From positions 1 to 64,000 of the forward strand of contig NZ_CANLRL010000007.1 of NCBI RefSeq assembly GCF_947493595.1: DNA of 64,000 nt, written 5' to 3'. Within the stretch, counting starts at the first letter, position 1. Each line of letters begins with the position of its first letter. The DNA is from an uncultured Shimia sp. (GTDB taxonomy: Bacteria; Pseudomonadota; Alphaproteobacteria; Rhodobacterales; Rhodobacteraceae). Below, piece after piece: positions 4,938 to 23,740 of the stretch. The position numbers were made by a program, and so were the translations under genes. The notes beneath the pieces are model-generated. The model saw only the letters and a program-made list of their open reading frames with translations, was not told the origin of the DNA and ran no database searches.

Positions 4938-5087
4938 ATCCCGCACACCGCACAATGCTTTCCCGTCCGTTCATCGCGGGCGGGGTGGGGACGTGCGTCC
5001 AGATATTCTCAACGAGGAGTCATCACATTCAGCAAGAAAAATTTTAGATTTCCAGAAGGCAACCCAGGCTTCTCTATTGACGGTCAA

Positions 5088-5987
5088 TTGGTGCCGGCCT
5101 TCGCAGGGGTAGTGAAGAAAGAGTGGCGCAAGGCCGCCTTGAAACATGGCTTTGAAATCCTCGGTCGAGCACTTGATCGATACTGGCTCGTGCTGAACTG
5201 CAAAGTTTGTAAGACTGTCCAACTGAAGCGTTTGAATGTGGTGCGCGATCACGCCCCCATTTGCCACCACTGCATCCACATTCGCCGTATATCTGAAGCC
5301 GAAGCGGCAGGGGCTGCGCTTTTGTCGGAGCCTTCCGGTGACCGCAAGTATGGTCTGTACAAGCTGACATGTGGGCACACCGTCAGACGTCAATACAGCC
5401 GCGTTCAAACCGCGGCAGCGGGTGGGTATAAGCTCGGCTGTGATGAATGCCGCGAAGCCCGATACGCACGCGAAGCGGAAGTCCATGGCTGGCGTCTCAT
5501 AGGGCCCGCAAGCGATGGTCGGCTAGGATATCGCCAATATCAGCACTCAACCTGTGGTCATACGCAAGACGTGATGATTGGTAACATGGCTTGGGGCGAC
5601 TGCAGTTGTGGCAAATGCGGACAAGGCTGGCCGTCTAAGCCTTCTTTTATCTATCTGTTCAAGATTGATCTGCCTGGCAATCCAGTGCTGAAACTTGGCT
5701 ACAGCGCTCGGCCGCAAAAGCGGTTGAAACATCAACTCGGGCTGGATCGGGCGGTCAATGTAGAGGTGCCGCGAGTCCTGCCGATGCTGTCAGGCCATGA
5801 TGCGCTGACTGAAGAAACAGCGTGTCACCGGTCCCTGCTGAAAGAACGGCCTGATTTGATCGTGCCCAAAGACGAGTTCGGCAGCGCAATCAATACCCAG
5901 TCAGAAATCTACAAGCTTGAAGCCAGCGAAATCATCAATGGCTTGTTGGATCGCATTGAGCAGCGAAATCCATCTGATCGCATCTAG
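5088..5987 (+). CDS. GIY-YIG-like (T5orf172-type) protein with Cys/His clusters; start uncertain
   Basis: About 299 aa from TTG 5088 (GTG at 5091 also possible). Residues about 185-220 (IYLFKIDL...LKLGYSARPQKRLK) match the core of the T5orf172/Mug113 branch of GIY-YIG nucleases, with the typical 'KlGys..p.kRlk' end. The N-terminal part carries several CxxC/CxxCH pairs (CKVC, CHHC, CGHT, CDEC, CSCGKCG) that would bind zinc and may recognise DNA. The reading frame stays open upstream to an AACGAGGAGT ribosome-binding site at 5011-5020, but the codons behind it are ATC/ACA/TTC, not a standard start. The true start may be a rare ATC/ATT or may have been lost. Likely a nuclease or DNA-binding cargo protein of the element. 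Confidence 0.65.
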   Translation: MVPAFAGVVKKEWRKAALKHGFEILGRALDRYWLVLNCKVCKTVQLKRLNVVRDHAPICHHCIHIRRISEAEAAGAALLSEPSGDRKYGLYKLTCGHTVRRQYSRVQTAAAGGYKLGCDECREARYAREAEVHGWRLIGPASDGRLGYRQYQHSTCGHTQDVMIGNMAWGDCSCGKCGQGWPSKPSFIYLFKIDLPGNPVLKLGYSARPQKRLKHQLGLDRAVNVEVPRVLPMLSGHDALTEETACHRSLLKERPDLIVPKDEFGSAINTQSEIYKLEASEIINGLLDRIEQRNPSDRI

Positions 5988-6048
5988 CTCAGTTTGATCC
6001 GCCTTGTTCTCAAAACAACTCTGACGAATCCCATTCTAGGAAACGCAT

Positions 6049-6885
6049 ATGTCCCAAACCAGTTCCCACAATACATCCGAAATCCAGAACCATACAGTAC
6101 CAGACTCTCCGGCTTTTGTTATGCGACGCTTGCTCGGCACAATCATGCAGCGATTTGCCAACGCACGTGATCCCGAGTTCGTAAAGAAAGACACCCAAGG
6201 TTACGACTTGGTTGAAGACTCTATCGACTATGTAGATGTCACCGACGATGATCCTGCGCCCAAAAAAGTCTATCTGGGTACGCCGAAATCAGAAAGCTTG
6301 ACGCAGGCGGAAATCCTAGCCGCAATCGAATCTGGGATTGACCCCTTTGCCTCTGATGTGAATGGCGAACCAGATCGTCAATTTTTGCACCCACCATTTA
6401 CAGATCTTCTTGTGGGGGCACGAATTGCCGATTGGATCACTTCTACAGGACAGTTTGAGAGCTTGGTTGCTGATGACGCGTTTTATGTTGTCGTCGAAGC
6501 TGATGAGCAATTCCGCAATGTGTATGAGGCATCATTAGAAGCCGTTTGTATGCTTTCTGCACAACTATTTTTGGCGCAAAGAGACGACTTTGACGGATTC
6601 GAAATATGCGTGAAAGACTGCGACTGGCAGCGATTACAGTCGAGCAGAAAATCCACGTTAAAGGAGCCGGGTTGGCGCTACAAACGGTATGGTTTTGAGA
6701 AATCAGTTCGGGCGGCGCTGGTCGAAAACGTGCCCGTTGTCGCAGTCGTCAAAACCTCGAATGACATTCCAGAAGACTTGCGGGTCTTTCAACCTGTTGA
6801 GTTGGAGCTTCCGGCTTTGTCGCGAGAAATGCTCGTTGAAATCTTACGTGTAACGCATACTTCCACAGGCCACCTGGCCGAATAG
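6049..6885 (+). CDS. N-terminal part of an AAA+/M41 protease (ends at in-frame TAG)
   Basis: 278 codons from ATG 6049 with an AGGAAA ribosome-binding site. No known domain is seen in residues 1-200. The end (about 225-278, VPVVAVVKTSNDIPEDLRVFQ...) reads like the part of a large AAA+ protein just before its ATPase core. The stop TAG (6883-6885) is in the same frame as the following 493-codon gene, with only ATT and GCC between the stop and its first TTG. A single G-to-T change of GAG (Glu) would explain it. The two frames together would encode one protein of about 774 aa. Alternatives are a true two-gene arrangement or amber readthrough. Confidence 0.75.
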   Translation: MSQTSSHNTSEIQNHTVPDSPAFVMRRLLGTIMQRFANARDPEFVKKDTQGYDLVEDSIDYVDVTDDDPAPKKVYLGTPKSESLTQAEILAAIESGIDPFASDVNGEPDRQFLHPPFTDLLVGARIADWITSTGQFESLVADDAFYVVVEADEQFRNVYEASLEAVCMLSAQLFLAQRDDFDGFEICVKDCDWQRLQSSRKSTLKEPGWRYKRYGFEKSVRAALVENVPVVAVVKTSNDIPEDLRVFQPVELELPALSREMLVEILRVTHTSTGHLAE

Positions 6886-6891
6886 GCCATT

Positions 6892-8373
6892 TTGGCGCTG
6901 TTGCCCGGTGAGGAACAGTTGGCAAGTCTGTCAATAGCAGCATTTGAACGTGCATTCTGCGCGCCAACCACTTTGCAAGTAGCGAAACGGCTACAGGACT
7001 ACGCCTCCAACCTTGAGGAAATGCCCTTGGCGCCAGTGGAGAATGCATCGACGGGCAAAACCTTGGATGACATGTACCTCAGCGATGACGTGCGGCGGTT
7101 ATGCAAGCAAATGCTTGCGGATTTGAAAGCGCATCAAGGGGGCATGATCGATTGGGCTGAAGTCCCGTCATCGCTGTTTCTGTCGGGGCCTCCGGGTAAC
7201 GGAAAGACTATGCTGGCCGAAGCGCTGGCGGGGTCGGCCGGAGTGAAACTCTTCACCACAAGCTACGGCGACTGCCAAAAACATGGTCACCAAGGCGATT
7301 TCCTGAAATCCTTGGCGGCGAAAGTCGAATGGGCAATCAAACACACACCTTGTGTCTTGTTCATCGACGAGTTTGACAGCTTCAATCATCGAAACAAACG
7401 CGACCGCAATTCTGACTATATCGTAGGTATTGTGAATACTCTGCTCGAGCATTTGACACGTCTTAACGAGACACCCGGTTTGCTTTTGGTTGCAGCAGCG
7501 AACCACAAAGACATGATCGACCCAGCTCTGCTACGGCCCGGACGATTTGATTTGCATGCGACGATCGACAAGCCCACCAAAGAAGGCGTCCGCAAGCTTT
7601 TGGAGATGGCGCTGGCGATGGATTTGCCGGACGGGCTTGTGGGCGATCTGGTGAACGGGTTGTTTGGGCCATCCGGCGCGGAAGTCGCTGGCTTCGTCCG
7701 CCAAGCAAAAGCTGCTGCGCGGGCAACAGGAGCGAAACTCCAGGAACAGCATTTGCGCGACACATTGCCAAAAGTGACGAACCCGTTTGCCGATCCAGAT
7801 CTCAATCGCATTGCCGTTCACGAAGCCGGGCATGTGATCGTGGCACGCCACTTGAAGCGGCCGCTTCCGGATGTGGTGCGGCTCACCAACTCAGGCGGAC
7901 ATGTTGCGTCACCGCGGGCAAGAATTGCGGCTTTGGAAAACACGCTTGATGACGTTGCTATTGACCTTGCTGGACGAGCTGCGGAAGAGGCGATGTTCGG
8001 AAATGTCTCCGCCGGCGCCGCGGAAGATCTGCTCTATGCCACGGAAATGCTATTTGCCGCCCGGAACCATTGGGGGCTTTATGATGACCAGCTTGTTGTG
8101 CTGCCAGCAGATGTCGGTCGACCAGTCGAGACTGAGGCGAGAGTGAACGCGCAAATCGATGCAGAGCTTCAGGCGCAATATCAGCGTGCCTTTGAAATCG
8201 TGTCGGTGAAGCTGGATCCCCTGGTATTGCTTGCTGGTGTGCTGTTGGAGAAACGGGAAATGGATCGGGCAGCGCTGAAAGCCTTCTTTGAGGGCGGCAT
8301 TAGTGGAATGGTAGGGCAACTGTCGGATGGCAAAACGGAGACTGGCGTTCATCCGAAGGATCTTGCGGAATGA
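6892..8373 (+). CDS. soluble AAA+ ATPase with FtsH-like M41 metalloprotease domain
   Basis: ATP-dependent zinc protease. Walker A GPPGNGKT (99-106), Walker B LFIDE (156-160) and a second region LLRPGRFD (213-220) define the AAA+ module. HEAGH (310-314) plus the Asp in AGAAEDLLYATEM (Asp379) supply the M41 zinc ligands. FtsH has N-terminal membrane helices; none is present here, so the enzyme should be cytoplasmic. The apparent start is a TTG at 6892 without a ribosome-binding site; the frame is continuous with the upstream gene except for one TAG, so this is probably the C-terminal two thirds of one protein. The stop overlaps the next start (ATGA at 8370), indicating coupled translation with the exonuclease-like gene. 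The substrate is unknown. Confidence 0.88.
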   Translation: MALLPGEEQLASLSIAAFERAFCAPTTLQVAKRLQDYASNLEEMPLAPVENASTGKTLDDMYLSDDVRRLCKQMLADLKAHQGGMIDWAEVPSSLFLSGPPGNGKTMLAEALAGSAGVKLFTTSYGDCQKHGHQGDFLKSLAAKVEWAIKHTPCVLFIDEFDSFNHRNKRDRNSDYIVGIVNTLLEHLTRLNETPGLLLVAAANHKDMIDPALLRPGRFDLHATIDKPTKEGVRKLLEMALAMDLPDGLVGDLVNGLFGPSGAEVAGFVRQAKAAARATGAKLQEQHLRDTLPKVTNPFADPDLNRIAVHEAGHVIVARHLKRPLPDVVRLTNSGGHVASPRARIAALENTLDDVAIDLAGRAAEEAMFGNVSAGAAEDLLYATEMLFAARNHWGLYDDQLVVLPADVGRPVETEARVNAQIDAELQAQYQRAFEIVSVKLDPLVLLAGVLLEKREMDRAALKAFFEGGISGMVGQLSDGKTETGVHPKDLAE

Positions 8374-8969
8374 ACGGTGGATGGAGGCAGTTCCTATTTG
8401 TGTCATTTGAGGCCAGCTCTTTGAGTTCGGAAAGCTGGCCAATTGAAGTTGGGATCGCTCGCCTTTATGGCGATAGGGTTATGCAGGCGTCTTGCCTCAT
8501 TCGACCTCGCAAGGCGTGGCCGTGGGATGACTGGAGTTTTGAGAGGCAGCGCCTTCATGGCATCAGATTGAAGGCATTGCGTTCTGCACGGCCTGCAGCT
8601 GAGGTTGCGGATTGGCTTGAGAGAGAACTGGTCGGGCGAAAATTGGTGTGCGGCAATGCGTTTTTTGACCAGTGGTGGCTGGATCAGTTGGTAGGCGCTT
8701 TGTCGCCGCACATTTTGGAATTTGAGCAAGCAGCGGATTGGGCTTTTGGGGCAAAAGGAGTTTTGGTGCCCAATCGGTTGAGCTGTGTCCAGCGGAGCTT
8801 ATCCCGACAGGCTATGCGGTATCGCGTCGGCGAAGATGCTGCCCGGTTGTGTAGGGCCTGGAGGGCTGGGCTTCTTGGTGACAATGGAGTTCTCCGGAGT
8901 GGAAACCAGCCTACAGAATTGCCTCCGTCTCTCAAAGCCGCCCCCCAAAAAACGCGAGCAGAAATATGA
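8370..8969 (+). CDS. DEDDh exonuclease-like protein with altered catalytic residues
   Basis: 199 aa. The fold is recognisable from FVSFEASSLSSESWPIEVG, which aligns with motif I of DnaQ-type 3'-5' exonucleases (usual form FxDFEASSL...PIEVG), from NAFFDQWWL (motif II) and from YRVGEDA (motif III, usually HRAxxDA). Two expected catalytic residues are missing: the first Asp of DxE is Ser, and the motif III His is Tyr. The protein may therefore bind nucleic acid or nucleotides without cleaving them, or have decayed. ATG overlaps the protease stop, and its own stop overlaps the next ATG, so it is the middle gene of a coupled operon. Confidence 0.72.
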   Translation: MNGGWRQFLFVSFEASSLSSESWPIEVGIARLYGDRVMQASCLIRPRKAWPWDDWSFERQRLHGIRLKALRSARPAAEVADWLERELVGRKLVCGNAFFDQWWLDQLVGALSPHILEFEQAADWAFGAKGVLVPNRLSCVQRSLSRQAMRYRVGEDAARLCRAWRAGLLGDNGVLRSGNQPTELPPSLKAAPQKTRAEI

Positions 8970-9532
8970 AAAATTGGTACACGGCAGATTGTCACTTTGG
9001 CCACGGTAACGTCATCAAGTTTTGCGGTAGGCCGTTTGAGACGGTTGACGAGATGGATGCAGCAATCATTGAGAACATGTGGAAAGTGGTTGGTCCGGAA
9101 GACCGCCTCTTCATACTCGGCGATTTTGCGTTCGGCGCACGGACCAAAGAACGGGCCTTTTTGGAGCACATGTTTGCGCAGCTGCCAGGGGCGGAGCGCC
9201 ACTTGGTGGTTGGCAATCACGACCAGAAGCAGACGCTTGAGTTGCCATGGGACACGGTATCGCAAGTGTCGGAAGTGCGGGACGGGCCGCATCAGCAGCG
9301 CAATACGTTGTGCCATTACCCACTTATCACATGGAACCATGCTCGCCGGGGAGCGCTCCAGATGTTTGGTCATGTGCATGGCAATTGGCTCGGATCGCGG
9401 AACTCAGTGAACGTTGGTGTTGATGTTTGGGATTTTGCACCGGTTGATTTTGACGCCGTACAAAGGCGTGCGTCTACCTTGCCGCCTAACAAACATTGGC
9501 ATGATGTGGAGCCGGGGGCGGATCTGGAATAG
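8966..9532 (+). CDS. calcineurin-like metallophosphoesterase
   Basis: 188 aa member of the two-metal phosphoesterase family. Metal ligands appear in order: ADCHFGH (Asp and His near residue 8-10), LGDFAFG (Asp about 53), VGNHDQ (Asn/His about 83-85), CHYPL (His) and GHVHG (His pair near 135). All the canonical blocks are present, so the enzyme looks active; substrates of the family include phosphodiesters of nucleotides and nucleic acids. The start overlaps the stop of the exonuclease-like gene by four bases (ATGA). It closes the protease operon and is the last gene before the right flank of the element. Confidence 0.88.
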   Translation: MKNWYTADCHFGHGNVIKFCGRPFETVDEMDAAIIENMWKVVGPEDRLFILGDFAFGARTKERAFLEHMFAQLPGAERHLVVGNHDQKQTLELPWDTVSQVSEVRDGPHQQRNTLCHYPLITWNHARRGALQMFGHVHGNWLGSRNSVNVGVDVWDFAPVDFDAVQRRASTLPPNKHWHDVEPGADLE

Positions 9533-9741
9533 CGGGGAGGAATTTGTCTGTGGCGGGCACGTCTATCCCAATTTGGTAGAGGCAAGACGGCGATAAATTG
9601 CGCATCTTGCTGGATGGCTGGGACCTGGTTGTTTGGGAACTTCGGCCAAATGCAGGCATAACAATTTGGTGCGGTGAAGGTCCGCTTTTCGTTCGAAGAA
9701 CCCCGCGGTTTCGATAGTGATGGCAGCAGGCTATCGTGGCA
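9533..9741. other. non-coding right flank of the element
   Basis: About 210 bases with no recognisable gene. It holds a short GGTGAAGGTCCGCTTTT stretch (about 9673-9689) that resembles dispersed intergenic repeats elsewhere in the window. The right boundary of the mobile element probably lies in or near this interval, but no copy of the tRNA 3' end was recognised. Confidence 0.45.
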
Positions 9742-10035
9742 TTAGAACCCGTACAGCTGTGCCGGGGTGTCCACAAAGATTTGCTGAATGGTTTTTGTTT
9801 TGCCTGTCCAGGCCATTGCCAAGTCAAGCAAATGCACGTCGTCGGGATAGGCTTCAGCGGTCGTGGCCATATTGTGGGGCCAGTTGCTGCCCCAGATGAT
9901 GCGATCAGGGGCGTGGTGGATCAATGCCTGGGAAAGTGCGGCCACGTCGTCGTAGCCGGGATAGCCGTTGCGTGACGTTTCATAACACGCGGCCATTTTC
10001 ACATAGCAGTTGCCGCGATCGATCAATGGCCGCAA
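9742..10035 (-). pseudogene. C-terminal remnant of a galactarolactone isomerase-like amidohydrolase
   Basis: About 95 residues (from LIDRGNCYVK to AQLYGF) match the last third of the full amidohydrolase at 20838-21692, including HAPDRIIWGSNWPHNM. Homology stops abruptly at about 10030, and no upstream part or start site is present. The two DNA copies look about 80% identical by eye, so this is not a fresh duplication. It lies downstream of the oxidoreductase gene on the same strand, so an amidohydrolase may once have belonged to that operon, or a deletion joined it to the mobile element's edge. Confidence 0.85.
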
Positions 10036-10118
10036 ATATAGGTCATTTCACCTATCCAACGCACAATTGGAAACTGTGATACTACACTACCACGTTGAAC
10101 CCGCATTCGCCGTTCCAC

Positions 10119-11225
10119 CTAACCGATCTCCGACATCTCGACAGATCGCTTTTCTTGGATGGATGTTTGCGCCGCGATCCCCATCAGGACAGCCATTTTC
10201 CCGTCGGTCAGGCTCACCTGGGGTGTGGACCGCTCGCCGCGTACCAATTCCAGGAAATACTTGTGTTGGTAAAAGGTTGAGCCATTGTGGTCGCCTGCAT
10301 CGAGGATGTCCGGATCCACAGGGATTTCCTTTTCAATCGGCCCTTTGGGCGCACGCGGAGACAGGATGAGTTTGGGGGTAGGCGCAGCGCCAAGGTGCGC
10401 GGGCCAGAAGCGGCCCGGCCCTGGAACCAGCGCTTCGATTTTACCTTTCGAACCGACGGCCGCGATTTCTTCCTGATATTCGGCGCCTTCGGCAAACATG
10501 CACAGTTCCAGCATCGCACGGGCGCCGTTTGCGAAATCGACGATGACGTATCCATTGTCGAGAATGTCCGGCACTCGCCCGTCATAGTTTTCGTCCAGAT
10601 GGTTTGCGTCCTGTCCCCCCGAGGCCATCACGCGCACCGGCTCCGATCCAAGCGTCAGGCGCATGAGGTCAAAGAAGTGGCAGCATTTTTCCACAAAGGT
10701 GCCACCGGATTTGGCGTTGAAGCGGTTCCAGTCATCGACCTTTTCCAGAAAGGGAAAGCGGTGTTCACGGATGGTCAGCATTTTGATGCCGCCGGTGACA
10801 TCTGCTGCGTTTTCCAGGAATGCCGCGACCGGCGGCATATAGCGGTACTCCATCGCGACCCAGGCCGGGGCGGGATAGCTGGCGATGAATTCGTCGATTT
10901 CGGACAGGTCCTGCGGATCCGTGTACAACGGTTTCTCGACAAGGATGGGCAAAGGACGGAGCCGGGCAATCTCTTGCAGTTGCGCGACATGGCAAAAATT
11001 CGGGCTGGCGATCAGCAGGCAGTCCAGCGTGTCCACGGCCAGCAGCTCTTCCAGGCTGTCGACAAACTGCGCATCGGGCGCGAAACGAGCGCTCTCCGTG
11101 CGCATTTGGGCGTTGGGTTCGAAGATGGCCCCAACTTCCGTGTTCGGAAGGAGTGCAATGTTGCGCAGATGCTCTTGTCCCATCATGCCGCAGCCGATGA
11201 TCCCGTAGGTGGTGGGTTTCGTCAT
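10119..11225 (-). CDS. Gfo/Idh/MocA oxidoreductase; possible NAD-dependent sulfoquinovosidase
   Basis: 368 aa with an N-terminal NAD(P) Rossmann motif GIIGCGMMG (8-16), the family's EKP motif (97-99, in LVEKPL) and a C-terminal alpha/beta domain containing GGTFVEKCCHFFDLM. Family members oxidise or reduce sugars, and some act as NAD-dependent glycosidases. The strong AGGAGG ribosome-binding site and a nine-base gap place it in an operon behind the GntR regulator gene. The opposite operon carries an SsuD-type monooxygenase, aldo/keto reductase and flavin reductase, so a role in releasing sulfoquinovose from glycosides (GH188-like chemistry) is attractive. That assignment is inference from context; a plain sugar dehydrogenase is the alternative. 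Confidence 0.85.
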   Translation of the reverse strand: MTKPTTYGIIGCGMMGQEHLRNIALLPNTEVGAIFEPNAQMRTESARFAPDAQFVDSLEELLAVDTLDCLLIASPNFCHVAQLQEIARLRPLPILVEKPLYTDPQDLSEIDEFIASYPAPAWVAMEYRYMPPVAAFLENAADVTGGIKMLTIREHRFPFLEKVDDWNRFNAKSGGTFVEKCCHFFDLMRLTLGSEPVRVMASGGQDANHLDENYDGRVPDILDNGYVIVDFANGARAMLELCMFAEGAEYQEEIAAVGSKGKIEALVPGPGRFWPAHLGAAPTPKLILSPRAPKGPIEKEIPVDPDILDAGDHNGSTFYQHKYFLELVRGERSTPQVSLTDGKMAVLMGIAAQTSIQEKRSVEMSEIG

Positions 11226-11233
11226 ATTGCCTC

Positions 11234-11944
11234 CTAAGTCAGGCGTTGGATGTAGATTGAGTGTTCCGGGTCAAACCACGTGCGTGAAAACTCTACTGGC
11301 AAGGGGGCTTGTGACCAACTCAGGCGTTCTATGTAGCCAGAAATTTCCCCCGGCGTTTGGCCGAAGGCCTCTGGCGCCCAGTCCGGCACGTGCCCGATGG
11401 AGACGCGGTCTTCGGCGCGCCGGATCCAGAAACCGAGCTGTTTCTGATAATAGTGGTACAGCGACTCCGAAAGTTTGGCCGGGTCCACTTTGCCCGCGTC
11501 GCCGTCCAACCAGATTTCTTCGACGGCGATCACAACCTCGTCCAGATAGCGCAACCTGCGAATCCGTGTGCCGTGATTCGACGTGCCAAAGGCTGGCAGG
11601 TCGGACGGCTTCTCCATGTCATGCACCGAGAGGATGTCCGCAGTGGGCAATCCGCCACCCTCGGGCAACTCCAATCGGAACATGGAGTAGACGCTGCGCC
11701 CGCTTTGGGTGGCGCGCACGTAGTTGCCGGATCCCTGAACCCGCTCCAGCATACCTTGCTTCTCCAGTTCGGCAAGGGATTTGCGCAGTGTACGCACGGT
11801 GGTTCCGTATTGCTTGGCCAGCTCGCGCTCAGGCGGCAAGCGCTCTCCGTCCACCAGACGGCCAGCCGCGATCTCTCGGATCAGGGTTTCGCTGATCTGC
11901 AAATAGAGCGGCAGGGCCGAACTGGAGAGGTCTGGATTTGACAT
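11234..11944 (-). CDS. GntR family regulator, HutC/UTRA type
   Basis: 236 aa. Residues about 10-75 form a GntR winged helix (LYLQISETLIREIAAGRLVDGERLPPER...LAKQYGTTVRTLRKSL), and the rest resembles a UTRA ligand-binding domain typical of HutC-type regulators of sugar and amino acid catabolism. It is divergent from the monooxygenase operon and upstream of the oxidoreductase in its own operon, so it probably controls both. A near-palindrome with TTGAT/ATCAA arms in the shared promoter region is the likely operator. In sulfo-SMO clusters a regulator occupies a similar place. Confidence 0.88.
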   Translation of the reverse strand: MSNPDLSSSALPLYLQISETLIREIAAGRLVDGERLPPERELAKQYGTTVRTLRKSLAELEKQGMLERVQGSGNYVRATQSGRSVYSMFRLELPEGGGLPTADILSVHDMEKPSDLPAFGTSNHGTRIRRLRYLDEVVIAVEEIWLDGDAGKVDPAKLSESLYHYYQKQLGFWIRRAEDRVSIGHVPDWAPEAFGQTPGEISGYIERLSWSQAPLPVEFSRTWFDPEHSIYIQRLT

Positions 11945-11959
11945 AGATCATCCCGAAAA

Positions 11960-11984
11960 TTGATACACCATTGATCTACATCAA
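11960..11984. promoter_or_regulatory. candidate operator of the HutC-type regulator
   Basis: TTGATCTACATCAA (11971-11984) has inverted arms TTGAT/ATCAA and a four-base centre; a further TTGAT begins at 11960. It lies in the 90-base interval between the divergent regulator and monooxygenase genes. Binding by the adjacent regulator is inferred from position. Confidence 0.5.
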
Positions 11985-12034
11985 ATCGCGGTTTATTCAA
12001 GGGGTAAGGAAAACGAGATTTTGGGAGGAACTCG

Positions 12035-13189
12035 ATGACCGTCGTGCCGGTGACATCTGCGGATTTGGATGCAGTAGAAGTGTCGTGGTTTGCCGCGCTG
12101 TGTTCAGACGATTACCAGTTCCTTGGCGTGCCAGATGGCGATCTGCGGTCGTCCTGGGCGCATTGCTCCAACATCGTGAAAGAAGCGGAAGCGCAAGGCT
12201 TTCGCAACATTCTGTGCCCGTCTTCTTATCAGGTAGGCCAGGACACGCTCAGCTTCGTGGCGGGTTGCGCTCCGATTACCAGCAAGATCAACATGCTGGC
12301 CGCCGTGCGCTGTGGAGAGATGCAGCCGATCATGCTGGCGCGTACGCTGGCGACGTTGGACCACATGTTGGAAGGTCGGCTGACAGTGAACATCATCTCG
12401 TCCGACTTTCCTGGTGAAAAGGCCGAGAGCAGCTATCGCTATCAGCGCTCGCGAGAAGTTGTCGAGATTCTCAAACAGGCCTGGACCCAGGGTGAGATCA
12501 ACCACAAAGGTGAGGTCTACAACTTCCAGAGCCTGACAGCTGATCCTGTGGTTCCGTATCAGACCGGTGGGCCATTGCTGTATTTTGGTGGCTATTCGCC
12601 GGATGCATTGGAACTCTGCGGGCAGCATTGCGATGTGTATCTGATGTGGCCGGAGAAGATGGATGAGTTGGCCGGGCGTATGAAGGCAGTGAACGCGGAG
12701 GCGGAACGCTATGGCCGGACACTCGATTACGGCTTGCGCGTGCATGTGATTGTCCGCGACACCGAGGCTGAAGCACGTGAATATGCGGACTACATTGTGT
12801 CTAAGCTTGATGACGAGCAGGGGCGCGCCATCCGGGAGCGTGCGCTGGACGCGAAATCTCTGGGTGTGTCGCATCAGGCGAAGAACCGCGATGTGGCCGA
12901 CGACGATGGCTTTATCGAACCACATCTCTGGACCGGCGTGGGCCGGGCGCGATCTGGCTGTGGCGCGGCACTGGTCGGGTCGACCGATCAGGTTTTGTCC
13001 AAGCTTGAGGCCTATAAGAAGATGGGGATGCGGGCTTTCGTTTTGTCTGGCTACCCGCATGTGGATGAGGCCAAGCATTTTGGCGCCCGCGTGATGCCCC
13101 ACCTCAACACTGTATCGCTGCCACATGCCTATGGGCGCGTGCCAGCATCTACGCCGCAAACCCCCCTTGGTATCGGAGAACGTCGCTGA
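12035..13189 (+). CDS. SsuD-like FMNH2-dependent monooxygenase, probable sulfosugar desulfonase
   Basis: 384 aa luciferase-like monooxygenase of the alkanesulfonate monooxygenase branch. The LRVHVIVRD stretch (Arg235, His237) matches the SsuD segment holding its active-site Arg and His, and VGRARSGCGAALVGS aligns with the later RGGxGTALVG loop that contacts flavin phosphate or sulfonate. Such enzymes use reduced FMN and O2 to convert a sulfonate to an aldehyde plus sulfite. GGGAGGAA precedes ATG. It is first in an operon with an aldo/keto reductase and a flavin reductase, the same trio as SmoC-SmoB-SmoA of the sulfoquinovose monooxygenase pathway. Sulfoquinovose as substrate is inference; another sulfonate or a non-sulfonate substrate cannot be excluded. 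Confidence 0.86.
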   Translation: MTVVPVTSADLDAVEVSWFAALCSDDYQFLGVPDGDLRSSWAHCSNIVKEAEAQGFRNILCPSSYQVGQDTLSFVAGCAPITSKINMLAAVRCGEMQPIMLARTLATLDHMLEGRLTVNIISSDFPGEKAESSYRYQRSREVVEILKQAWTQGEINHKGEVYNFQSLTADPVVPYQTGGPLLYFGGYSPDALELCGQHCDVYLMWPEKMDELAGRMKAVNAEAERYGRTLDYGLRVHVIVRDTEAEAREYADYIVSKLDDEQGRAIRERALDAKSLGVSHQAKNRDVADDDGFIEPHLWTGVGRARSGCGAALVGSTDQVLSKLEAYKKMGMRAFVLSGYPHVDEAKHFGARVMPHLNTVSLPHAYGRVPASTPQTPLGIGERR

Positions 13190-14079
13190 TGAACCGCGTC
13201 GAGATCGCAAACGGGCTGACTTTCAGCCGTCTGGTGTATGGCATGTGGCGCGTGGCCGATGATGCGGATACGTCGCCAGAATACGTAGAGGCAAAAATCC
13301 AAGCCTGTTTGGATCAAGGGATCACGACCATTGATCAGGCGGACATCTATGGCGACTACGGCGCCGAGGCGGTGCTTGGCGGGGCGCTAAAAGCCAACCC
13401 GGCGTTGCGCAATCAGATCGAGATTGTGACAAAGTGCGATATCGTCGCGCCCATCGGGATTTATGCCGACAAGCCGGTCAAATACTACGACACGTCGCGC
13501 GCCCACATCGAAGCCTCGCTGAACCGGTCTTTGCGTGAAATGGGTGTGGATCACGTGGATCTTCTGTTGATCCACCGACCCGATCCTTTGATGGATCACA
13601 ATGAAACCGGGGCAGTTCTGGATGATCTTGTGGCGTCAGGCAAGGCGCGCGCCGTCGGCGTCTCCAATTTCCGTCCATGGAACTGGAAGCTTTTGCAGTC
13701 TGCGATGAAGACGCCGCTTGCCACCAACCAAATCGAGATATCATTGGCGGAACTGTCTCCTTTCACAAATGGGGATTTGGCCTTCCATCAACAGCATGAT
13801 CAGCCTGTCATGGCATGGTCGCCGCTTGGTGGCGGCAGCCTGATGACCGGAACAAGGGATGTAGCGGACCGTTTGGATCGTATCGCGGCAGAGCAGGGCG
13901 TGGATCGCGCGGCTGTGGCCGTGGCGTTCCTTTTGCGCCATCCGGCCCGTATCCTGCCGGTTTTGGGCACCAACAACCTTGATCGTATCAAGATGATTTC
14001 GGACGCGGAGAAGGTCACACTGGACCGCGAAACCTGGTTCTCTCTCTACGAAGCCGCGCTCGGCAAGGAGGTCCCATGA
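13189..14079 (+). CDS. aldo/keto reductase, SmoB/YdhF-like
   Basis: 296 aa TIM-barrel NAD(P)H oxidoreductase. The catalytic tetrad is visible: Asp49 and Tyr54 (in IDQADIYG), Lys82 (TKCD) and His129 (LLIHRPD). The C-terminal cofactor-binding loop is present. It overlaps the monooxygenase stop by one base and the flavin reductase start by four bases (ATGA), so the three are made together. In the sulfo-SMO pathway the equivalent enzyme reduces 6-oxo-glucose, the desulfonation product, to glucose; I propose the same role here. Confidence 0.88.
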   Translation: MNRVEIANGLTFSRLVYGMWRVADDADTSPEYVEAKIQACLDQGITTIDQADIYGDYGAEAVLGGALKANPALRNQIEIVTKCDIVAPIGIYADKPVKYYDTSRAHIEASLNRSLREMGVDHVDLLLIHRPDPLMDHNETGAVLDDLVASGKARAVGVSNFRPWNWKLLQSAMKTPLATNQIEISLAELSPFTNGDLAFHQQHDQPVMAWSPLGGGSLMTGTRDVADRLDRIAAEQGVDRAAVAVAFLLRHPARILPVLGTNNLDRIKMISDAEKVTLDRETWFSLYEAALGKEVP

Positions 14080-14603
14080 TGTCTGCTCACACTGTCGGGG
14101 GAAAGTTTAGCTTTGTGCCCGACCCGAACAACACACGGCTCTTGCGTGACGCGTTTGGGCGGTTTGCCACCGGTGTGACCATTGTCACGGCGGCCTCGGA
14201 AAACGGTCCGGTGGCCATCACCGCCAACAGTTTTTCCTCGGTGTCATTGACCCCGCCTCTGGTGCTGTGGTCCCCTGACAAGAACTCACGCCGGTTTCCG
14301 CATTTTGAACGCGCAGCGCACTATGCGATCCATGTTCTGTCCGCTGAACAGGATGAGCTTTGCTGGACGGTGGCCAAAGATGCCTTTGGCTTGGCGGACG
14401 TAGAACATCAGGTGAATGACTGGGGCGTGCCTATTTTGGACAATTGCCTTGCACGGTTCGAATGCACTCGGTCCGCGATTTACGAAGGCGGCGATCACGC
14501 GATTGTTCTGGGACATGTTGATCACGCGACCATGCGCGAAGACGGAGATGCGCTGACTTTCTACAAGGGCCAAATGGGCCAGATTGCCGCTGTAAAACAA
14601 TAA
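14076..14603 (+). CDS. flavin reductase supplying FMNH2 to the monooxygenase
   Basis: 175 aa with the DIM6/NTAB flavin-binding split-barrel pattern: FGRFATGVTIVT, GPVAITANSFSSVSLTPPLVL and a C-terminal GDHAIVLGHV block. These proteins reduce FMN with NAD(P)H for two-component monooxygenases. The position directly behind the SsuD-like and aldo/keto reductase genes, with a start overlap, identifies the partner. Two ATG codons stand at the start; either gives nearly the same protein. Confidence 0.9.
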   Translation: MMSAHTVGGKFSFVPDPNNTRLLRDAFGRFATGVTIVTAASENGPVAITANSFSSVSLTPPLVLWSPDKNSRRFPHFERAAHYAIHVLSAEQDELCWTVAKDAFGLADVEHQVNDWGVPILDNCLARFECTRSAIYEGGDHAIVLGHVDHATMREDGDALTFYKGQMGQIAAVKQ

Positions 14604-14660
14604 GATCGGCGACCTGCATTCTGAAGAGGACAGAATGCTAAACGGGAGGAGAAGAACACG

Positions 14661-15251
14661 ATGAAGGCAGTCTTTGCTGTCTTGAATCTGTTGCGTTCAC
14701 TGAATTCCGGACTGTTGACAGTCGGGCGTTGTCTGGGCGTGTTCGCCATAGGCGTGATGGTCGCGGCGATCCTGATCCAAGTTTTCTTTCGTTACGTTCT
14801 GGGCAGTGCATTGCCCTGGCCCGACGAAGCCGCCCGTTTCTTTATGCTGTGGATGACAGGTCTGATGGCGCCCACGGCTTTCCGAAATGGCGGCTTTGTG
14901 GCGATTGACTTCATTGATGCGGTTATCAAAGGCAAGGCAATGCATCTCCTGCAGTTTGTCTTGTTGTTGATCAGCCTGACGGTGCTGATCGTCGGGGTGC
15001 AGATTGGCTACAAAGAGGTCACCGGGCTTGGTGGGCGTTTCACCACCGCGTCTTTGTATCTGCCGACTTCTCTGACGTTTGACGGTTGGTACCGAATACC
15101 ACGCAGTTGGATGATGCTGTCCCTTCTGGTGGGCATCGTGCTTCTGATCTTAGTGAACATCGAGCTGTTGCTGGAGCGCTTTGTGCGCCTGTTGGGCATG
15201 GGCGACCGTTTGCCCACGCGTTCAGGCCTCCCCGTCGGAGGGACTGAGTAA
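14661..15251 (+). CDS. TRAP transporter small membrane subunit (DctQ type)
   Basis: 196 aa integral membrane protein with four predicted helices, including the conserved FFRYVLGSALPWPDEAARFFMLWM region after the first helix. It bridges the binding protein and the large permease in TRAP secondary transport. GGGAGGAG precedes ATG. Its stop overlaps the DctM start (TAATG), and it lies 57 bases behind the flavin reductase, so uptake and catabolic enzymes are likely one transcript. Confidence 0.92.
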   Translation: MKAVFAVLNLLRSLNSGLLTVGRCLGVFAIGVMVAAILIQVFFRYVLGSALPWPDEAARFFMLWMTGLMAPTAFRNGGFVAIDFIDAVIKGKAMHLLQFVLLLISLTVLIVGVQIGYKEVTGLGGRFTTASLYLPTSLTFDGWYRIPRSWMMLSLLVGIVLLILVNIELLLERFVRLLGMGDRLPTRSGLPVGGTE

Positions 15252-16720
15252 TGCTGATCTGGTTTCTTCCACTGTTTTTGTTCCTTCTTCTGGTTGGTCT
15301 GCCAGTGTTTTTCTGCCTTCTGGCTGCGCCGGGGGCGTTGCTTTGGTTAAACGGACAAGAACGTGACATCACGTTGCTGTACCGGAATCTCTATAACGGT
15401 ATGGACAGCTTCCCCTTGATGGCCATTCCGTTTTTCATGTTGGCTGGCGAGCTGATGAACCGGGGTGGGATCACAGTCCGGTTGGTCGAGTTCTCGCAAG
15501 CCTTGATGGGGCATCTGCGGGGCGGGCTCGCACAGGTGAACATCCTATCGTCGATCCTGTTTGCAGGGCTGTCTGGTTCGGCGGTGGCGGACACCTCCGC
15601 GCTTGGCTCCATGCTGATCCCGGCGATGGAGCGTGAAGGCTACACCCGCAAATTTGCCGCAGCTGTGACCGCAGCCAGTTCTGTCATCGGCCCAATCATT
15701 CCGCCTTCGGGCATCATGATCATCTACGCCTATGTAATGGGCGAAAGCGTCGCCGCGTTGTTCCTTGCTGGCATTGTACCTGGCATTCTGGTGGGTGTTG
15801 GCCTGATGGTGATGGTCCGCGTCATGGCCGACAAATATGATCTGCCCGCGGCGCGCCGTGTCACGTTTGAGAACGTTGAGATTGGCGGTTTGGAAAGTTG
15901 GGTATCCTTTGTGCTGGTGCGGCTGAACCTCGGGCTTTTGCTGGCGCAGTTTGCCCCGGCGGCTGACACAACCCTGTCCAAATGGCTGACCTTCCTAGGC
16001 GCGGTGCTTCTGGCGCATGGATTGATGCTGGGGCTACGCCGAGTGGTCAGCCCCGAGTTCCGCATTGTCTGCAAGCGCGCCGTGGTGCCACTGCAGACAC
16101 CTATCCTGATCCTGGGCGGTATATTGGCCGGTGTGTTCACGCCAACCGAGGCCGCTGCGGTTGCAGTTGCCTATGCGCTGTTGGTTGGGTTTCTGGTGCT
16201 GCGGACCATGAAGTTGAAAGACTTGCCGGAGGTTTTCACCCGTGCCGGGATCACGTCCGCTGTGGTGCTGCTGTTGGTGGGGGCGGCCATGTCGTTCAAA
16301 ACAGTAGTTAGCCTCAGCCATGCACCGGAAATTCTGGCCGAGTTCATTCTGACCCTGTCGGAAAATCCTCTGATCTTGCTGTTCCTGATCAATCTACTGC
16401 TGTTCGTAGTGGGCATGTTTCTGGACGCAGGCCCTGCGATCATCATCCTTGGCCCCATTTTGGGACCTGTCTTTGAAGGGCTGGGGGTCGAGTCCATCCA
16501 CTTTGCTATCATCATGTGTGTGAACCTGACCGTGGGCTTGGCCACGCCCCCCATGGGGCTAGTACTCTTTGTCGCCGCGTCCGTTTCACATGAACGGGTG
16601 ACAACAATCGCCAAAGCAATTCTGCCATTTCTTGCAATTGAGGTCGCCGTGATCTTCTTGATCACTTTTGTGCCTGAAATTTCTCTGACCATTCCGAAGC
16701 TAACGGGGTTCTTGAACTGA
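15251..16720 (+). CDS. TRAP transporter large permease (DctM type)
   Basis: 489 aa, about 12-14 membrane helices, with the DctM hallmark blocks PFFMLAGELMNRGG, SGSAVADTSALGSMLIP, VIGPIIPPSGIMI and FAIIMCVNLTVGLATPPMGL. It is somewhat longer than many DctM proteins because of an extra segment around residues 205-270. It forms the ion-coupled channel of the transporter with the DctQ and DctP proteins encoded on either side. Confidence 0.94.
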   Translation: MLIWFLPLFLFLLLVGLPVFFCLLAAPGALLWLNGQERDITLLYRNLYNGMDSFPLMAIPFFMLAGELMNRGGITVRLVEFSQALMGHLRGGLAQVNILSSILFAGLSGSAVADTSALGSMLIPAMEREGYTRKFAAAVTAASSVIGPIIPPSGIMIIYAYVMGESVAALFLAGIVPGILVGVGLMVMVRVMADKYDLPAARRVTFENVEIGGLESWVSFVLVRLNLGLLLAQFAPAADTTLSKWLTFLGAVLLAHGLMLGLRRVVSPEFRIVCKRAVVPLQTPILILGGILAGVFTPTEAAAVAVAYALLVGFLVLRTMKLKDLPEVFTRAGITSAVVLLLVGAAMSFKTVVSLSHAPEILAEFILTLSENPLILLFLINLLLFVVGMFLDAGPAIIILGPILGPVFEGLGVESIHFAIIMCVNLTVGLATPPMGLVLFVAASVSHERVTTIAKAILPFLAIEVAVIFLITFVPEISLTIPKLTGFLN

Positions 16721-16756
16721 CACCAAAAAAACGACGTGCAACAGGAGGAAACACGC

Positions 16757-17815
16757 ATGTTTATGAAACTGGCAAAGACGGTGGCACTGTCGGCCTTGAT
16801 GGCCGGCACAGCGCTGACCGCAAGTGCGGCTGACTACACGATCCGTGCAACAGCAAACTCGAATGAAAACGATGAAGACTATGATGGTCTCGTTGTCTTC
16901 AAAAACTATGTCGAAGCGGCCTCTAACGGCGCCATTGAGGTGGAGCTGTTTATTGGCACACAGCTGTGCTCCAACGGCGCCGAATGCCTTCAAGGCGTGG
17001 CGGATGGGTCCATTGACGTCTACATCTCTACCTCTGGCGGCGCGTCCGGTTTGTTTCCCTATGTGCAAGTTCTCGACCTGCCATATCTGATGGCGGATGA
17101 CCGCATCGCGGAACATGTTCTCTCCGGTGACTTTACCCGCAAAATGCGCGCGATGGCTTTGGAGGACAGCGGTGACGCAATCCGCCTGATGACCATTGGC
17201 AATACTGGTGGCTGGCGCAACTTTGCCAACACCAAGCGCCGAGTGGCTGCGCCGGCCGATATGGAAGGTCTGAAGATCCGGACTGTTGTGGCTGACCTAC
17301 CACAGGAGCTTGTGAAAGCGCTTGGCGCGTCCCCGACGCCAATCCCATGGCCTGAACTGTTCACCAGCTTCCAGACTGGTGTTGTTGAAGGCTCCAAGAA
17401 CGGCATCACAGACATCATGGGCATGAAGTTCCCAGATGCGGGTCTGCAATATGTGACTTTGGATGGCCACGCGTACATGGGTGCGCTGTGGTGGATGTCG
17501 AACCAGACGTTCATGGACATGCCAGAAGACATGCGCCGTGTTGTGGTTGACGGGTTCTATGCCCTGCAACAGGCCACCTTTGCATCGCCAAAGCGTAAGT
17601 CGATCCAGGCCTATGAAGACTTCGTTGCCGGTGGCGGGGACCTCTATGTTCCAACCCCAGCAGAGAAAGACGCGTTCAAACAGGCGGCTTCCCCAGTTTA
17701 TGACTGGTTCAAGTCAAACGTGGCTCGTGGCGATGAGGTGTTCACTGCTCTGACCGATGCAGTTGCCTCAGCAGAAGCGGACGTGAACGGCGCTCGTGAC
17801 GCGGACCTGAACTAA
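16757..17815 (+). CDS. TRAP transporter solute-binding protein (DctP type)
   Basis: 352 aa periplasmic binding protein. ATG at 16757 follows a strong ACAGGAGGAA site and gives a signal peptide ending at ASA/ADY. The family block with the ligand-binding Arg is near KIRTVVADLPQELVKALGASPTPIPWPELFTSFQTGVVEG. It shares limited motif detail with the second DctP of the window, so the ligand probably differs; context suggests sulfoquinovose or a related anionic sugar (inference). Confidence 0.92.
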   Translation: MFMKLAKTVALSALMAGTALTASAADYTIRATANSNENDEDYDGLVVFKNYVEAASNGAIEVELFIGTQLCSNGAECLQGVADGSIDVYISTSGGASGLFPYVQVLDLPYLMADDRIAEHVLSGDFTRKMRAMALEDSGDAIRLMTIGNTGGWRNFANTKRRVAAPADMEGLKIRTVVADLPQELVKALGASPTPIPWPELFTSFQTGVVEGSKNGITDIMGMKFPDAGLQYVTLDGHAYMGALWWMSNQTFMDMPEDMRRVVVDGFYALQQATFASPKRKSIQAYEDFVAGGGDLYVPTPAEKDAFKQAASPVYDWFKSNVARGDEVFTALTDAVASAEADVNGARDADLN

Positions 17816-17820
17816 GCACA

Positions 17821-17854
17821 AACGGCGCGGGGGCAGACCCTCGCGCCGTTTTTT
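17821..17854. terminator. rho-independent terminator (likely bidirectional)
   Basis: AACGGCGCG (17821-17829) pairs perfectly with CGCGCCGTT (17842-17850) and is followed by a T run. It follows the TRAP operon and also faces the end of the convergent Sel1-repeat gene. Confidence 0.9.
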
Positions 17855-17863
17855 GTCCGGCAT

Positions 17864-18355
17864 TTACCGGAACGGATACATCCACACGCGGTAGTCCTCG
17901 ACCAGAATATGCGCTTTATCAATCTCTTCCTTGGTCATTTTTTTCACAACCTCTTCAAGGCTGATCGCCGCGTCGGGGTCACCGCCGATCGCCGACAGCG
18001 TGTACCACATGTAGGCTCGGACCAAATCCGGCGCGGGCATGCCGCGCCCGACCTCATAGTACCAACCGATCCCAGATTGCGCGCCGGGGTGACCTTTCAT
18101 GGCGCTGCGCAGATACCACTCAAACGCGCGCTGATCGTCGCGCTCAACACCAAGCCCCATCGCATACATTACGCCGATAAGTTCCTCGGCGTCGGCATTA
18201 CCCGAACGGGCGGCTGGCCACATTGCTTCACGCGCGGCCTCAAAATCCCCGGCTTCCATAAGATCGCGCGCGGCTTCGATTTCGGCGAGGGCAAATTGGG
18301 TCGTTCCCACGACCAACGCGGCCGCCAGAAGAAGCTTTTTTGTATGGTGTCGCAT
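17864..18355 (-). CDS. exported Sel1-repeat protein
   Basis: 163 aa with a signal peptide (KLLLAAALVVGTTQFALA) and Sel1-like repeats: GNADAEELIGVMYAMGLGVERD and GHPGAQSGIGWYYEVGRGM are clear repeat units of about 36 residues. Such proteins are periplasmic scaffolds for protein contacts. ATG 18355 has a GGAGAG site. Its 5' end overlaps that of the divergent peroxidase gene. Confidence 0.85.
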   Translation of the reverse strand: MRHHTKKLLLAAALVVGTTQFALAEIEAARDLMEAGDFEAAREAMWPAARSGNADAEELIGVMYAMGLGVERDDQRAFEWYLRSAMKGHPGAQSGIGWYYEVGRGMPAPDLVRAYMWYTLSAIGGDPDAAISLEEVVKKMTKEEIDKAHILVEDYRVWMYPFR

Positions 18356-19666
18356 GCACTCTCCGTGATCCTGTTTACTGCCCCATCTTTCGCCGAATTG
18401 CCTGCGTTGCCAACACCACTGAGTGCCAGTGACTTCATGGGTGTAGACGCCGAAAAGGCGGAACTGGGACGCCTGTTATTTTACGACAAGATCCTGTCCG
18501 GGAACAGAAATATCAGCTGTGGAACCTGCCATCACCCGCGATTTGGAACCTCTGATGGATTGTCGCTCGGATTGGGGGAAGGCGGGCAAGGTCTTGGGCC
18601 GGATCGGGTCTCGGACATGGGCAGCAATAAAGTCCAGAAACGTATTCCGCGCAACGCGCCCGCGCTATGGAATTTAGGCGCCAAGACCATTGACACGTTG
18701 ATGCATGATGGCCGGGTCAGCGTGGACCCCATATTTGGCAATGGCTTCAACACGCCCGCAGAAGAGTGGCTTCCCGGCGGGCTAAAGTCAGTTCTGGCGG
18801 CGCAGGCGCTTTTCCCCATGACATCCGGCTTTGAGATGGCCGGAAACGTCGGCGAAAACGAGGTTGTGGGTGCGACGCGCGACCGGATTGATGCGGCTTG
18901 GCCCATCATTGCAAAAAGGGTCAGGACGCTGCCGGACTATGGTGCCAAATTTGTTTCGGCTTTTGACGGGATTGAGGCGGCCGAAGAGGTGACGATTGTC
19001 CAAATCGCCGATGCCTTGGCGCATTTCATGGTGCAAGACTTCACGTCCTTTGACAGCCTATTTGATGCCTATCTGGAGGGTGATGATCAGGCTCTGTCCG
19101 CGGTGCAAGTTCAAGGCATGGAGCTGTTTTTTGGCAAAGCCGGATGCAGTAATTGCCATTCCGGAAATCTGTTTTCAGATCAGCAGTTTCACGCTTTGGG
19201 ATTGCCGGCATTTGGACCAGGCCGCACCCGAAGGTTTGACCCTTATGCGCGAGATGTTGGGCAGATGGGGGAAACGGACGACCCTGCGGATGCTTATCGC
19301 TTCCGGACGCCGATGCTGAGAAATGTCGCCCTCACAGCGCCTTACGGACACAATGGCGCGTACCCGACGTTGGAGCGGATGATCCGGCATCACCTCGATC
19401 CCCCGGGGGCGCGAGCCACGTGGAATGCCGCTGATCTGACATTGCCCGACGTACCTTGGCTCAGTCCCATCGATTTTGTCATCCAGCAGGACCGTATCGA
19501 AATGGCGCGGCATGCCAAGTACCGCGACATTCATATTCCGCCCCGCAGTGATGCTGAGATTGCAGCCTTGGTTGCCTTTCTGGAAAGTCTGACTGGGGCG
19601 GCAGCTAAGTCGGTAGAAAGCCGGGTTCCCGAACAGGTTCCCAGCGGTCTCAGAGTGGATCGGTAA
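18344..19666 (+). CDS. di-haem cytochrome c peroxidase / MauG family protein
   Basis: About 440 aa. Two haem-c motifs, CGTCH (59-63) and CSNCH (268-272), and the GHNGAYPTLE segment fit the bacterial di-haem peroxidase family, which reduces H2O2 or oxidises proteins in the periplasm. The start ATG 18344 yields a short signal peptide ending in PSFA; the open frame continues upstream but crosses the divergent Sel1 gene and is not credible. The first twelve bases overlap the Sel1 gene's start, so the true start could be slightly downstream. Confidence 0.87.
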   Translation: MVSHALSVILFTAPSFAELPALPTPLSASDFMGVDAEKAELGRLLFYDKILSGNRNISCGTCHHPRFGTSDGLSLGLGEGGQGLGPDRVSDMGSNKVQKRIPRNAPALWNLGAKTIDTLMHDGRVSVDPIFGNGFNTPAEEWLPGGLKSVLAAQALFPMTSGFEMAGNVGENEVVGATRDRIDAAWPIIAKRVRTLPDYGAKFVSAFDGIEAAEEVTIVQIADALAHFMVQDFTSFDSLFDAYLEGDDQALSAVQVQGMELFFGKAGCSNCHSGNLFSDQQFHALGLPAFGPGRTRRFDPYARDVGQMGETDDPADAYRFRTPMLRNVALTAPYGHNGAYPTLERMIRHHLDPPGARATWNAADLTLPDVPWLSPIDFVIQQDRIEMARHAKYRDIHIPPRSDAEIAALVAFLESLTGAAAKSVESRVPEQVPSGLRVDR

Positions 19667-20837: not shown

Positions 20838-21692
20838 TTAGAACCCGTAGAGCCGCGTGGGGGTATCCACAAAGATCTGCTGAAGGGTCCCGGTTGACTC
20901 AGCCCAGTCCATTGCCAAATCCAGCAAATGTACGTCGTCTGGATAGGTTTCCGCGGTGGTGGCCATGTTGTGGGGCCAGTTGCTGCCCCAGATGATGCGG
21001 TCAGGGGCATGTTGAATGAGCGCTTTGGAAAGCGCAGCCACGTCGGTGTAATGGGGAAAATTGCTGCGCGAGGTTTCATAGCAGGCAGCTATCTTTACGA
21101 AGCAGTTGCCGCGATCAATCAGGCGCAGCAAGGCCTGGAACTCTGCGCTCTCGACGCTAGGCGGGGTTAGGAACTTGCCTGCGTGGTCAATCACATAGGG
21201 GCCTTTGATGCGCGTGAGAAGATCGTAGTGCTGGAGTATCTCGCAGCCATCGAATTGCACAATCACAGACCAGCCAAAAGGCGCCACCCGTGCGTTGACC
21301 TCGAGCAATGCCTCCAGGCCAACGGCGCCTTGCAGGATGTCCATGATCCGGGCCCCGCACACGCCGCGTGCGGTCATGGTTTCGAGGTCTTGATCCGCAA
21401 CATCTGGTTTGACGGCGGCAATGCCCCGTGCCGTGTCGCCAAAATGATCCAGCCCCTCCAGGAGGCAGCGGTTGTCTGTTTGGTAGGCATTGCCCTGCAC
21501 CAGCACCACACGCTCCAGCCCAAGCCAGCGTTGAACACTTTCATAGTGCGGGATCAGCGCGTCGGCAGGGGCGGGTGGCCCGCCGGGTTGGCTGCTGTAT
21601 TTGGCGCTGTCAAACAGGTGGATGTGGCAATCGGTGGCCTGCGGCGGCAGCGGGCGCTTTGGCGGCCGGCCGGTTAGGGTGCGAAAGGTCAT
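20838..21692 (-). CDS. amidohydrolase-superfamily D-galactarolactone isomerase
   Basis: 284 aa TIM-barrel protein of the COG3618 amidohydrolase group. DCHIHLFD gives the first metal/active-site His pair, VIDHAGK the later His, and IIWGSNWPH the final Asp/Ser-type region. In Agrobacterium a homologue isomerises galactaro-1,5-lactone to the 1,4-lactone in the oxidative uronate pathway. Here it is third in a minus-strand operon behind the dehydratase and the cycloisomerase, which is the same set. A degraded C-terminal copy lies at 9742-10035. A lactonase role remains possible. Confidence 0.83.
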   Translation of the reverse strand: MTFRTLTGRPPKRPLPPQATDCHIHLFDSAKYSSQPGGPPAPADALIPHYESVQRWLGLERVVLVQGNAYQTDNRCLLEGLDHFGDTARGIAAVKPDVADQDLETMTARGVCGARIMDILQGAVGLEALLEVNARVAPFGWSVIVQFDGCEILQHYDLLTRIKGPYVIDHAGKFLTPPSVESAEFQALLRLIDRGNCFVKIAACYETSRSNFPHYTDVAALSKALIQHAPDRIIWGSNWPHNMATTAETYPDDVHLLDLAMDWAESTGTLQQIFVDTPTRLYGF

Positions 21693-21695
21693 GCT

Positions 21696-23740
<2,045 letters not shown>

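Follow-up and report, generated by a model that had tools for sequence, protein, structure and literature searches.

The window analysed here is a stretch of 64,000 nucleotides from an uncultured Shimia sp. (contig NZ_CANLRL010000007.1, positions 1 to 64,000), and this report concerns a gene cluster within it whose products are predicted to import and desulfonate sulfoquinovose (SQ), a plant and algal sugar of which Roseobacters are notable marine users. An earlier note had placed eight genes of a sulfoquinovose monooxygenase (sulfo-SMO) type cluster with a tripartite ATP-independent periplasmic (TRAP) transporter at 10119-17815. All eight open frames were located there, the expected Pfam family scored above its cut-off for each, and the GntR regulator and Gfo/Idh/MocA genes do lie on the opposite strand facing the enzyme genes, as had been described. 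The SQ unit probably extends past 17815, because a Sel1-repeat gene and a di-haem MauG-family gene are conserved alongside it in many relatives. The features are as follows.

10119-11225, minus strand: predicted from sequence as a GH188-type NAD-dependent sulfoquinovosidase (SqgA-like), Gfo/Idh/MocA family
11234-11944, minus strand: GntR/UTRA-type regulator, transcribed divergently from smoC (both Pfam domains, GntR and UTRA, above their cut-offs)
12035-13189, plus strand: putative SmoC-type FMNH2-dependent SQ monooxygenase, luciferase-like (structure-chain matches, tree)
13189-14079, plus strand: putative SmoB-type aldo/keto reductase (6-oxo-glucose reductase; match to 7bby)
14076-14603, plus strand: putative SmoA-type flavin reductase (Pfam Flavin_Reduct, position)
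14661-15251, plus strand: TRAP small permease DctQ (Pfam DctQ)
15251-16720, plus strand: TRAP large permease DctM (Pfam DctM; NCBIfam TIGR00786 above cut-off)
16736-17815, plus strand: TRAP binding protein DctP (Pfam DctP)
17864-18355, minus strand: Sel1-repeat protein (Pfam Sel1)
about 18344-19666, plus strand: MauG/bacterial cytochrome c peroxidase-family di-haem protein (Pfam CCP_MauG; CXXCH at residues 59 and 268)

The start codon of smoB overlaps the stop codon of smoC, DctQ, DctM and DctP are encoded together with all three Pfam families above cut-off, and the regulator gene adjoins smoC in most loci compared. The probable start of DctP is the ATG at 16757, with homologues beginning at residue 8, and the N-terminus of the Sel1 protein resembles a signal peptide as judged by eye. 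Among the best 80 of 538 matches, the nearest named relatives of the locus were Rhodobacteraceae bacterium Alg238-R152 and Shimia. The Pfam search found no SQ isomerase, sulfofructose kinase or sulfofructose phosphate aldolase among the ten proteins of 10119-19666, so that a sulfo-Embden-Meyerhof-Parnas (sulfo-EMP) pathway was not indicated there.

Of the SmoC-SmoB-SmoA trio named in the earlier note, SmoC and SmoB were borne out by comparison with solved structures. Over its full length the window SmoC scored 674 bits to 7olf and 669 to 7oh2, which we take to be sulfo-SMO SQ monooxygenases although their PDB names do not state SQ, and the next solved chain, another alkanesulfonate monooxygenase, scored 188. 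SmoB scored 414 bits to 7bby, presumably itself a SmoB, with the next match at 220. The best NCBIfam match of the flavin reductase was FerA (189.7 bits, under the cut-off of 260), and its Pfam family and position are those expected of SmoA. In the kind of phylogeny that had been proposed as a check, the monooxygenase did not group with non-sulfonate enzymes: of 29 rows, 24 formed a clade (100/98) holding the window protein, 7olf, 7oh2 and SquD-like proteins, and the five SsuD, SfnG and other rows stood outside it, although the tree came with long-branch warnings. Arg235 and His237 are present at those positions, as had been noted, but they were rejected as a mark of SQ specificity, since both also occur in three of the five outgroup rows (SsuD and SsuD-like) and give no proof of it when SsuD carries them. 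Two further SmoC relatives were observed elsewhere. One, 53% identical, carries a single in-frame TGA (G098:C1:617864-618958; L030, L133), and on a Qingshengfaniella plasmid (L148, 8209-13310) SmoC is directly followed by TRAP genes, and the annotation shows neither SmoB nor SmoA nor GH188 in the vicinity.

The suggestion that the Gfo/Idh/MocA protein might be an NAD-dependent sulfoquinovosidase gained from the same comparison. This protein scored 526 bits to 8zn9 and 371 and 361 bits to the SqgA chains 8qc2 and 8qc3, with the next match at 63. Counting by eye along the alignment to SqgA, which has a one-residue gap, with the numbering of PMC10755693 showed that eight of nine compared active-site residues are kept, including the sulfonate-binding R156, L160 and K162 (SqgA R166, L170 and K172) and the substrate or catalytic residues K98, Y127, E179, H183 and H313 (SqgA K107, Y136, E189, H193 and H321). 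At the ninth, SqgA Glu163, the same count arrives at a Val even in the solved chain and at Arg153 in the window protein, and the following residue is Glu in both. The protein is thus a predicted GH188-type sulfoquinovosidase that would cleave glycosides NAD-dependently. A GH31 sulfoquinovosidase had only a single match in the window's genome, below cut-off (22.2 against 23.5 bits).

Taken together, we read the cluster as a sulfo-SMO pathway for SQ with a TRAP importer, at a probability of about 0.85. Periplasmic DctP would bind SQ or one of its glycosides, for example SQ-glycerol, and hand it to DctQM for import, presumably driven by an ion gradient. Next, the GH188 enzyme would release SQ from its glycoside, SmoA would provide FMNH2 to SmoC, SmoC would cut the C-S bond to yield sulfite and 6-oxo-glucose, and SmoB would reduce 6-oxo-glucose to glucose. 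The GntR protein may regulate the divergent promoter, and the Sel1 and di-haem MauG-like proteins may act as an accessory pair in SQ use. With regard to sulfite, a gene of the putative sulfate exporter family, to which we assign the label PF03601, recurs beside 24 of 88 sulfo-SMO loci (for example L139, 18079-19104) and is plausibly a sulfite or sulfate outlet; PF03601 had no match in the window's genome. A gene for sulfite oxidation was also sought there, and PF00174 gave five matches, three of them strong, none of which could be assigned to sulfite.

The distribution of the importer was surveyed in sulfo-SMO loci that include the best 80 of 538 confirmed, a sample that leans to close relatives. 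Of 118 loci, 116 were retained (L147 and L150 lie outside the open reading frame family), of which 99 remained when SmoC had to be less than 97% identical and 88 when 9 kb or more of downstream sequence was also required. A TRAP system of the window's type was present in 64 of these 88 loci, 10 held an ATP-binding cassette (ABC) importer, counted as similarity to one ABC type, and 14 held neither; by eye, some of the remaining loci (L125, L092) may hold another ABC system. Stricter dereplication at 90% SmoC identity gave 35 TRAP, 7 ABC and 11 other loci (n = 53). The TRAP system is therefore a real departure from the known ABC form, as the earlier note had held, but it is no rare variant and is instead the usual importer form for sulfo-SMO in the Roseobacter lineage. 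TRAP genes also stand beside SMO genes on annotated plasmids of Ruegeria TM1040, Rhizobium SL42, Salipiger, Paracoccus and Roseivivax, and DctP had a match (E limit 1e-60) in 12 plasmid records, 10 of which were SmoC records as well.

Further evidence on the ligand came from clusters that hold the same importer without SmoC. Across 147 related genomes, with identity limits of 68% for DctP and 52% for MauG that were both chosen after viewing gaps, DctP at or above its limit was found in 37 genomes, SmoC in 31 and both in 21, and 36 of the 37 genomes with this DctP also held GH188. We compared 15 regions, comprising 14 of the 16 genomes with such a DctP but no SmoC match plus G034 (36% DctP); G014 and G017 were examined from coordinates only. 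Eleven regions combined DctQMP and GH188 with a kinase and an SQ-isomerase-like gene, nine of these also with an aldolase family gene, where the window has SmoA-C, and the Sel1 and MauG genes were present in ten of the eleven. In L160, the kinase scored 174.0 bits to a solved sulfofructose kinase, just below an unnamed sugar kinase at 174.5, the sole NCBIfam match of the isomerase was SQ isomerase at 248 bits (under the cut-off of 700), and two sulfopyruvate decarboxylase subunits scored above their cut-offs; the SQ-isomerase-like protein had no relative among solved structures by sequence. These eleven clusters are read as encoding a predicted sulfo-EMP-type pathway. Within the window's genus (25 genomes), seven genomes held SmoC and seven held DctP and GH188 without it, five of the latter having had regions compared, and none held both.

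The importer is nearly constant between the two kinds of cluster. Median DctP identity to the window was 84% in the 11 sulfo-EMP-type loci and 85% in 87 SMO loci, whereas GH188 identity was 52% and 70%, respectively. In a DctP tree of 95 rows, from which short, duplicate and stop-bearing rows had been left out, neither SMO nor sulfo-EMP-type rows came out as one clean group (their labels require 5 and 3 changes), while the starred branches taken alone would still allow the sulfo-EMP-type rows to have arisen once. The substrate itself, its import and the step that frees it from glycosides are nearly all that the two pathways share. Because a near-constant DctP accompanies differing catabolic genes, SQ or one of its glycosides is the most likely cargo of the TRAP system, as judged from gene context. 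Four compared regions did not fit the sulfo-EMP-type pattern. L165 held the TRAP genes and the Sel1/MauG pair, with GH188 absent from the compared stretch; L170 (G064, 4226-10845) held matches to GH188, GntR, SmoB, SmoA and TRAP without SmoC or the Sel1/MauG pair; L171 (G072) is described below; and L172 represents a distant TRAP. L170 and L171 are possible cluster remnants in which the monooxygenase was replaced or lost.

The Sel1/MauG pair was likewise conserved across both pathways, the Sel1 protein being 70-99% identical in 58 SMO loci and 73-80% identical in 10 sulfo-EMP-type loci. Membership of the di-haem family was evident from the two CXXCH motifs, Pfam CCP_MauG and the family fold: Foldseek gave 68 matches at E of 0.001 or less to a model of mean pLDDT 67, and the 50 of these that were listed all belonged to the bacterial cytochrome c peroxidase/MauG family. 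Both in sequence and as a model, the protein matched plain bacterial cytochrome c peroxidases as well as MauG and the copper-linked, MauG-like 6e1c. This similarity speaks for a rival explanation, in which Sel1 and MauG make up an ordinary peroxidase unit of the periplasm that lies near SQ genes by shared descent only and has no SQ role, since the plain peroxidases match it as well as MauG does, many SMO loci have no MauG, and the pair lies outside the SQ cluster in G044, G081 and G082, where Sel1 still adjoins MauG. Set against it is a tree of hand-picked rows (29 of 60 SMO copies including the window's, 8 of 10 sulfo-EMP-type copies and 11 paralogues), in which a 100/100 branch parts the SQ-linked copies from the 11 paralogues, with a short second copy in G088, labelled a paralogue, falling on the SQ side. 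No Sel1 gene was found beside the two of the 11 paralogues with long enough flanks (L180, L142). Moreover, all 30 of the 147 genomes with a MauG copy at least 52% identical hold GH188 and 29 of them hold DctP, the pair accompanies both SMO and sulfo-EMP-type clusters, and in L093 and L117, which have neither TRAP nor Sel1, MauG directly follows smoA, which ties it to SQ genes rather than to TRAP only. The ordinary-peroxidase explanation therefore carries some weight but appears unlikely, and the Sel1 and MauG-family proteins are probably a linked accessory pair tied to SQ use, with a putative redox role and a presumed periplasmic location. A second MauG-family protein in the window's genome (L180, G000:C4:150576-151826) is 48% identical and groups with the paralogues in the tree; the Phaeobacter relative adjoins an aldose epimerase gene near sugar ABC genes.

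A bolder proposal, which we put forward tentatively and regard as rather doubtful, is that DctQMP and Sel1/MauG form a portable periplasmic SQ-acquisition set that Roseobacter-type bacteria couple either to oxidative desulfonation or to sulfoglycolysis. Uptake of SQ compounds would then depend on an undescribed oxidation by the di-haem protein, whose target would be Sel1, as MauG-family proteins act on protein partners, or a sulfolipid-derived substrate. Oxygenation of fatty acyl chains by the di-haem protein, in the manner of Pseudomonas diol-synthase enzymes (PMC4496055), was considered as a further candidate reaction.

It is also conceivable that the enzymes are a sulfo-SMO set while the TRAP system carries something else, for instance a sugar acid or a small sulfonate, and SQ is taken up by a different route. 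According to the part of PMC4646407 available to us, most characterised TRAP proteins bind carboxylates and hold the acid group of the ligand with a conserved arginine; DctP R182 aligns with an arginine of SiaP and IseP. An attempt to obtain the ligand from structure was abandoned, as the DctP model (mean pLDDT 74) matched TRAP proteins of many ligands, sugar-acid and other binders as well as IseP, and no ligand was drawn. IseP (8t9t, 8te9), an isethionate binder that ranks second among solved chains in the profile comparison with DctP, nevertheless shows that a TRAP protein can bind a sulfonate, although it is only about 20-23% identical to the window DctP and its ligand is a small C2 compound where a hexose is proposed here. 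As this DctP is retained next to GH188 and to the genes of two distinct SQ pathways, import of another compound seems improbable. A reading in which the monooxygenase is a general alkanesulfonate enzyme (SsuD) that scavenges sulfur, and the cluster has a purpose other than SQ use, is very improbable, since the shared fold family and Arg235/His237 are outweighed by a score of 235 bits against the SsuD family TIGR03565 (cut-off 518), by the clade with SmoC chains apart from SsuD, and by the GH188 and SmoB orthologues that adjoin smoC.

Several observations weigh against the sulfo-SMO reading with a TRAP importer for SQ. Neither TRAP nor MauG is essential to the pathway, as 24 of 88 SMO loci lack the former and 45 of 88 the latter, and L171 (7075-10775) holds matches to SmoA and TRAP only, with none to GH188 or SmoC. 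Identity of the window DctP to TRAP proteins with solved structures, which bind many different ligands, is only about 20-25%, and the flavin reductase is a putative SmoA by family and position only. The associations across the 147 genomes (Fisher p 5e-24 and 6e-20) are uncorrected for shared descent. Finally, binding, transport and activity of the SQ system are predictions made at the level of sequence.

Around the cluster, genes of the amidohydrolase, enolase-superfamily, dihydrodipicolinate synthase-family and NAD-dependent epimerase/dehydratase types adjoin it at 20838-24686 and are possibly a uronate or sugar-acid catabolic set. Upstream, a weak Mob_Pre match at 2395-4044 (23.5 bits, below the cut-off of 25.5) possibly marks a mobile region.

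The sulfo-SMO of Agrobacterium tumefaciens, reportedly described by Sharma et al. 2022, is said to use the ABC importer SmoE-H and a GH31 sulfoquinovosidase. Both loci have SmoC, SmoB and flavin reductase homologues in an operon with a sulfoquinovosidase and an importer, but the window has TRAP in place of SmoE-H and GH188 in place of GH31, together with a GntR regulator and the Sel1/MauG pair. Closer to the window, Marinovum algicola pMaD9 carries GntR, GH188, SmoC, SmoB and flavin reductase homologues and differs in a sugar ABC importer where the window has TRAP. The Roseobacter clusters of PMC10755693 agree in lineage, SMO enzymes and GH188, the last being near-universal there in the available part of that paper, and sulfo-SMO is called prevalent in the Roseobacter clade in that of PMC13372026; the enzyme part of the cluster is thus already known in kind. 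The main text of PMC10755693, as far as available, names neither a transporter nor a MauG-type gene, and the SQ importers named in the accessible parts of PMC8873060, PMC12421959 and PMC9594981 are ABC systems. Among the papers listed and opened, none ties a TRAP or MauG-type protein to SQ uptake, but Liu et al. 2023, Ma et al. 2025 and Sharma et al. 2022 may well describe TRAP. The pathway itself has therefore been published, and what our analysis adds is the TRAP and Sel1/MauG genes common to two SQ pathways.

SQ output is put at about ten billion tons a year (PMC10755693), and SQ import has been called poorly characterised (PMC8873060), each in the part of the source at hand. If the proposed role of the TRAP system is true, DctP would be a pathway-independent marker of SQ uptake in a lineage in which the recognised ABC type accounts for just 10 of 88 loci. 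Similarly, the pairing with a di-haem protein would, if true, point to a step in SQ use beyond those described in the SQ literature surveyed, so far as its sources were available.

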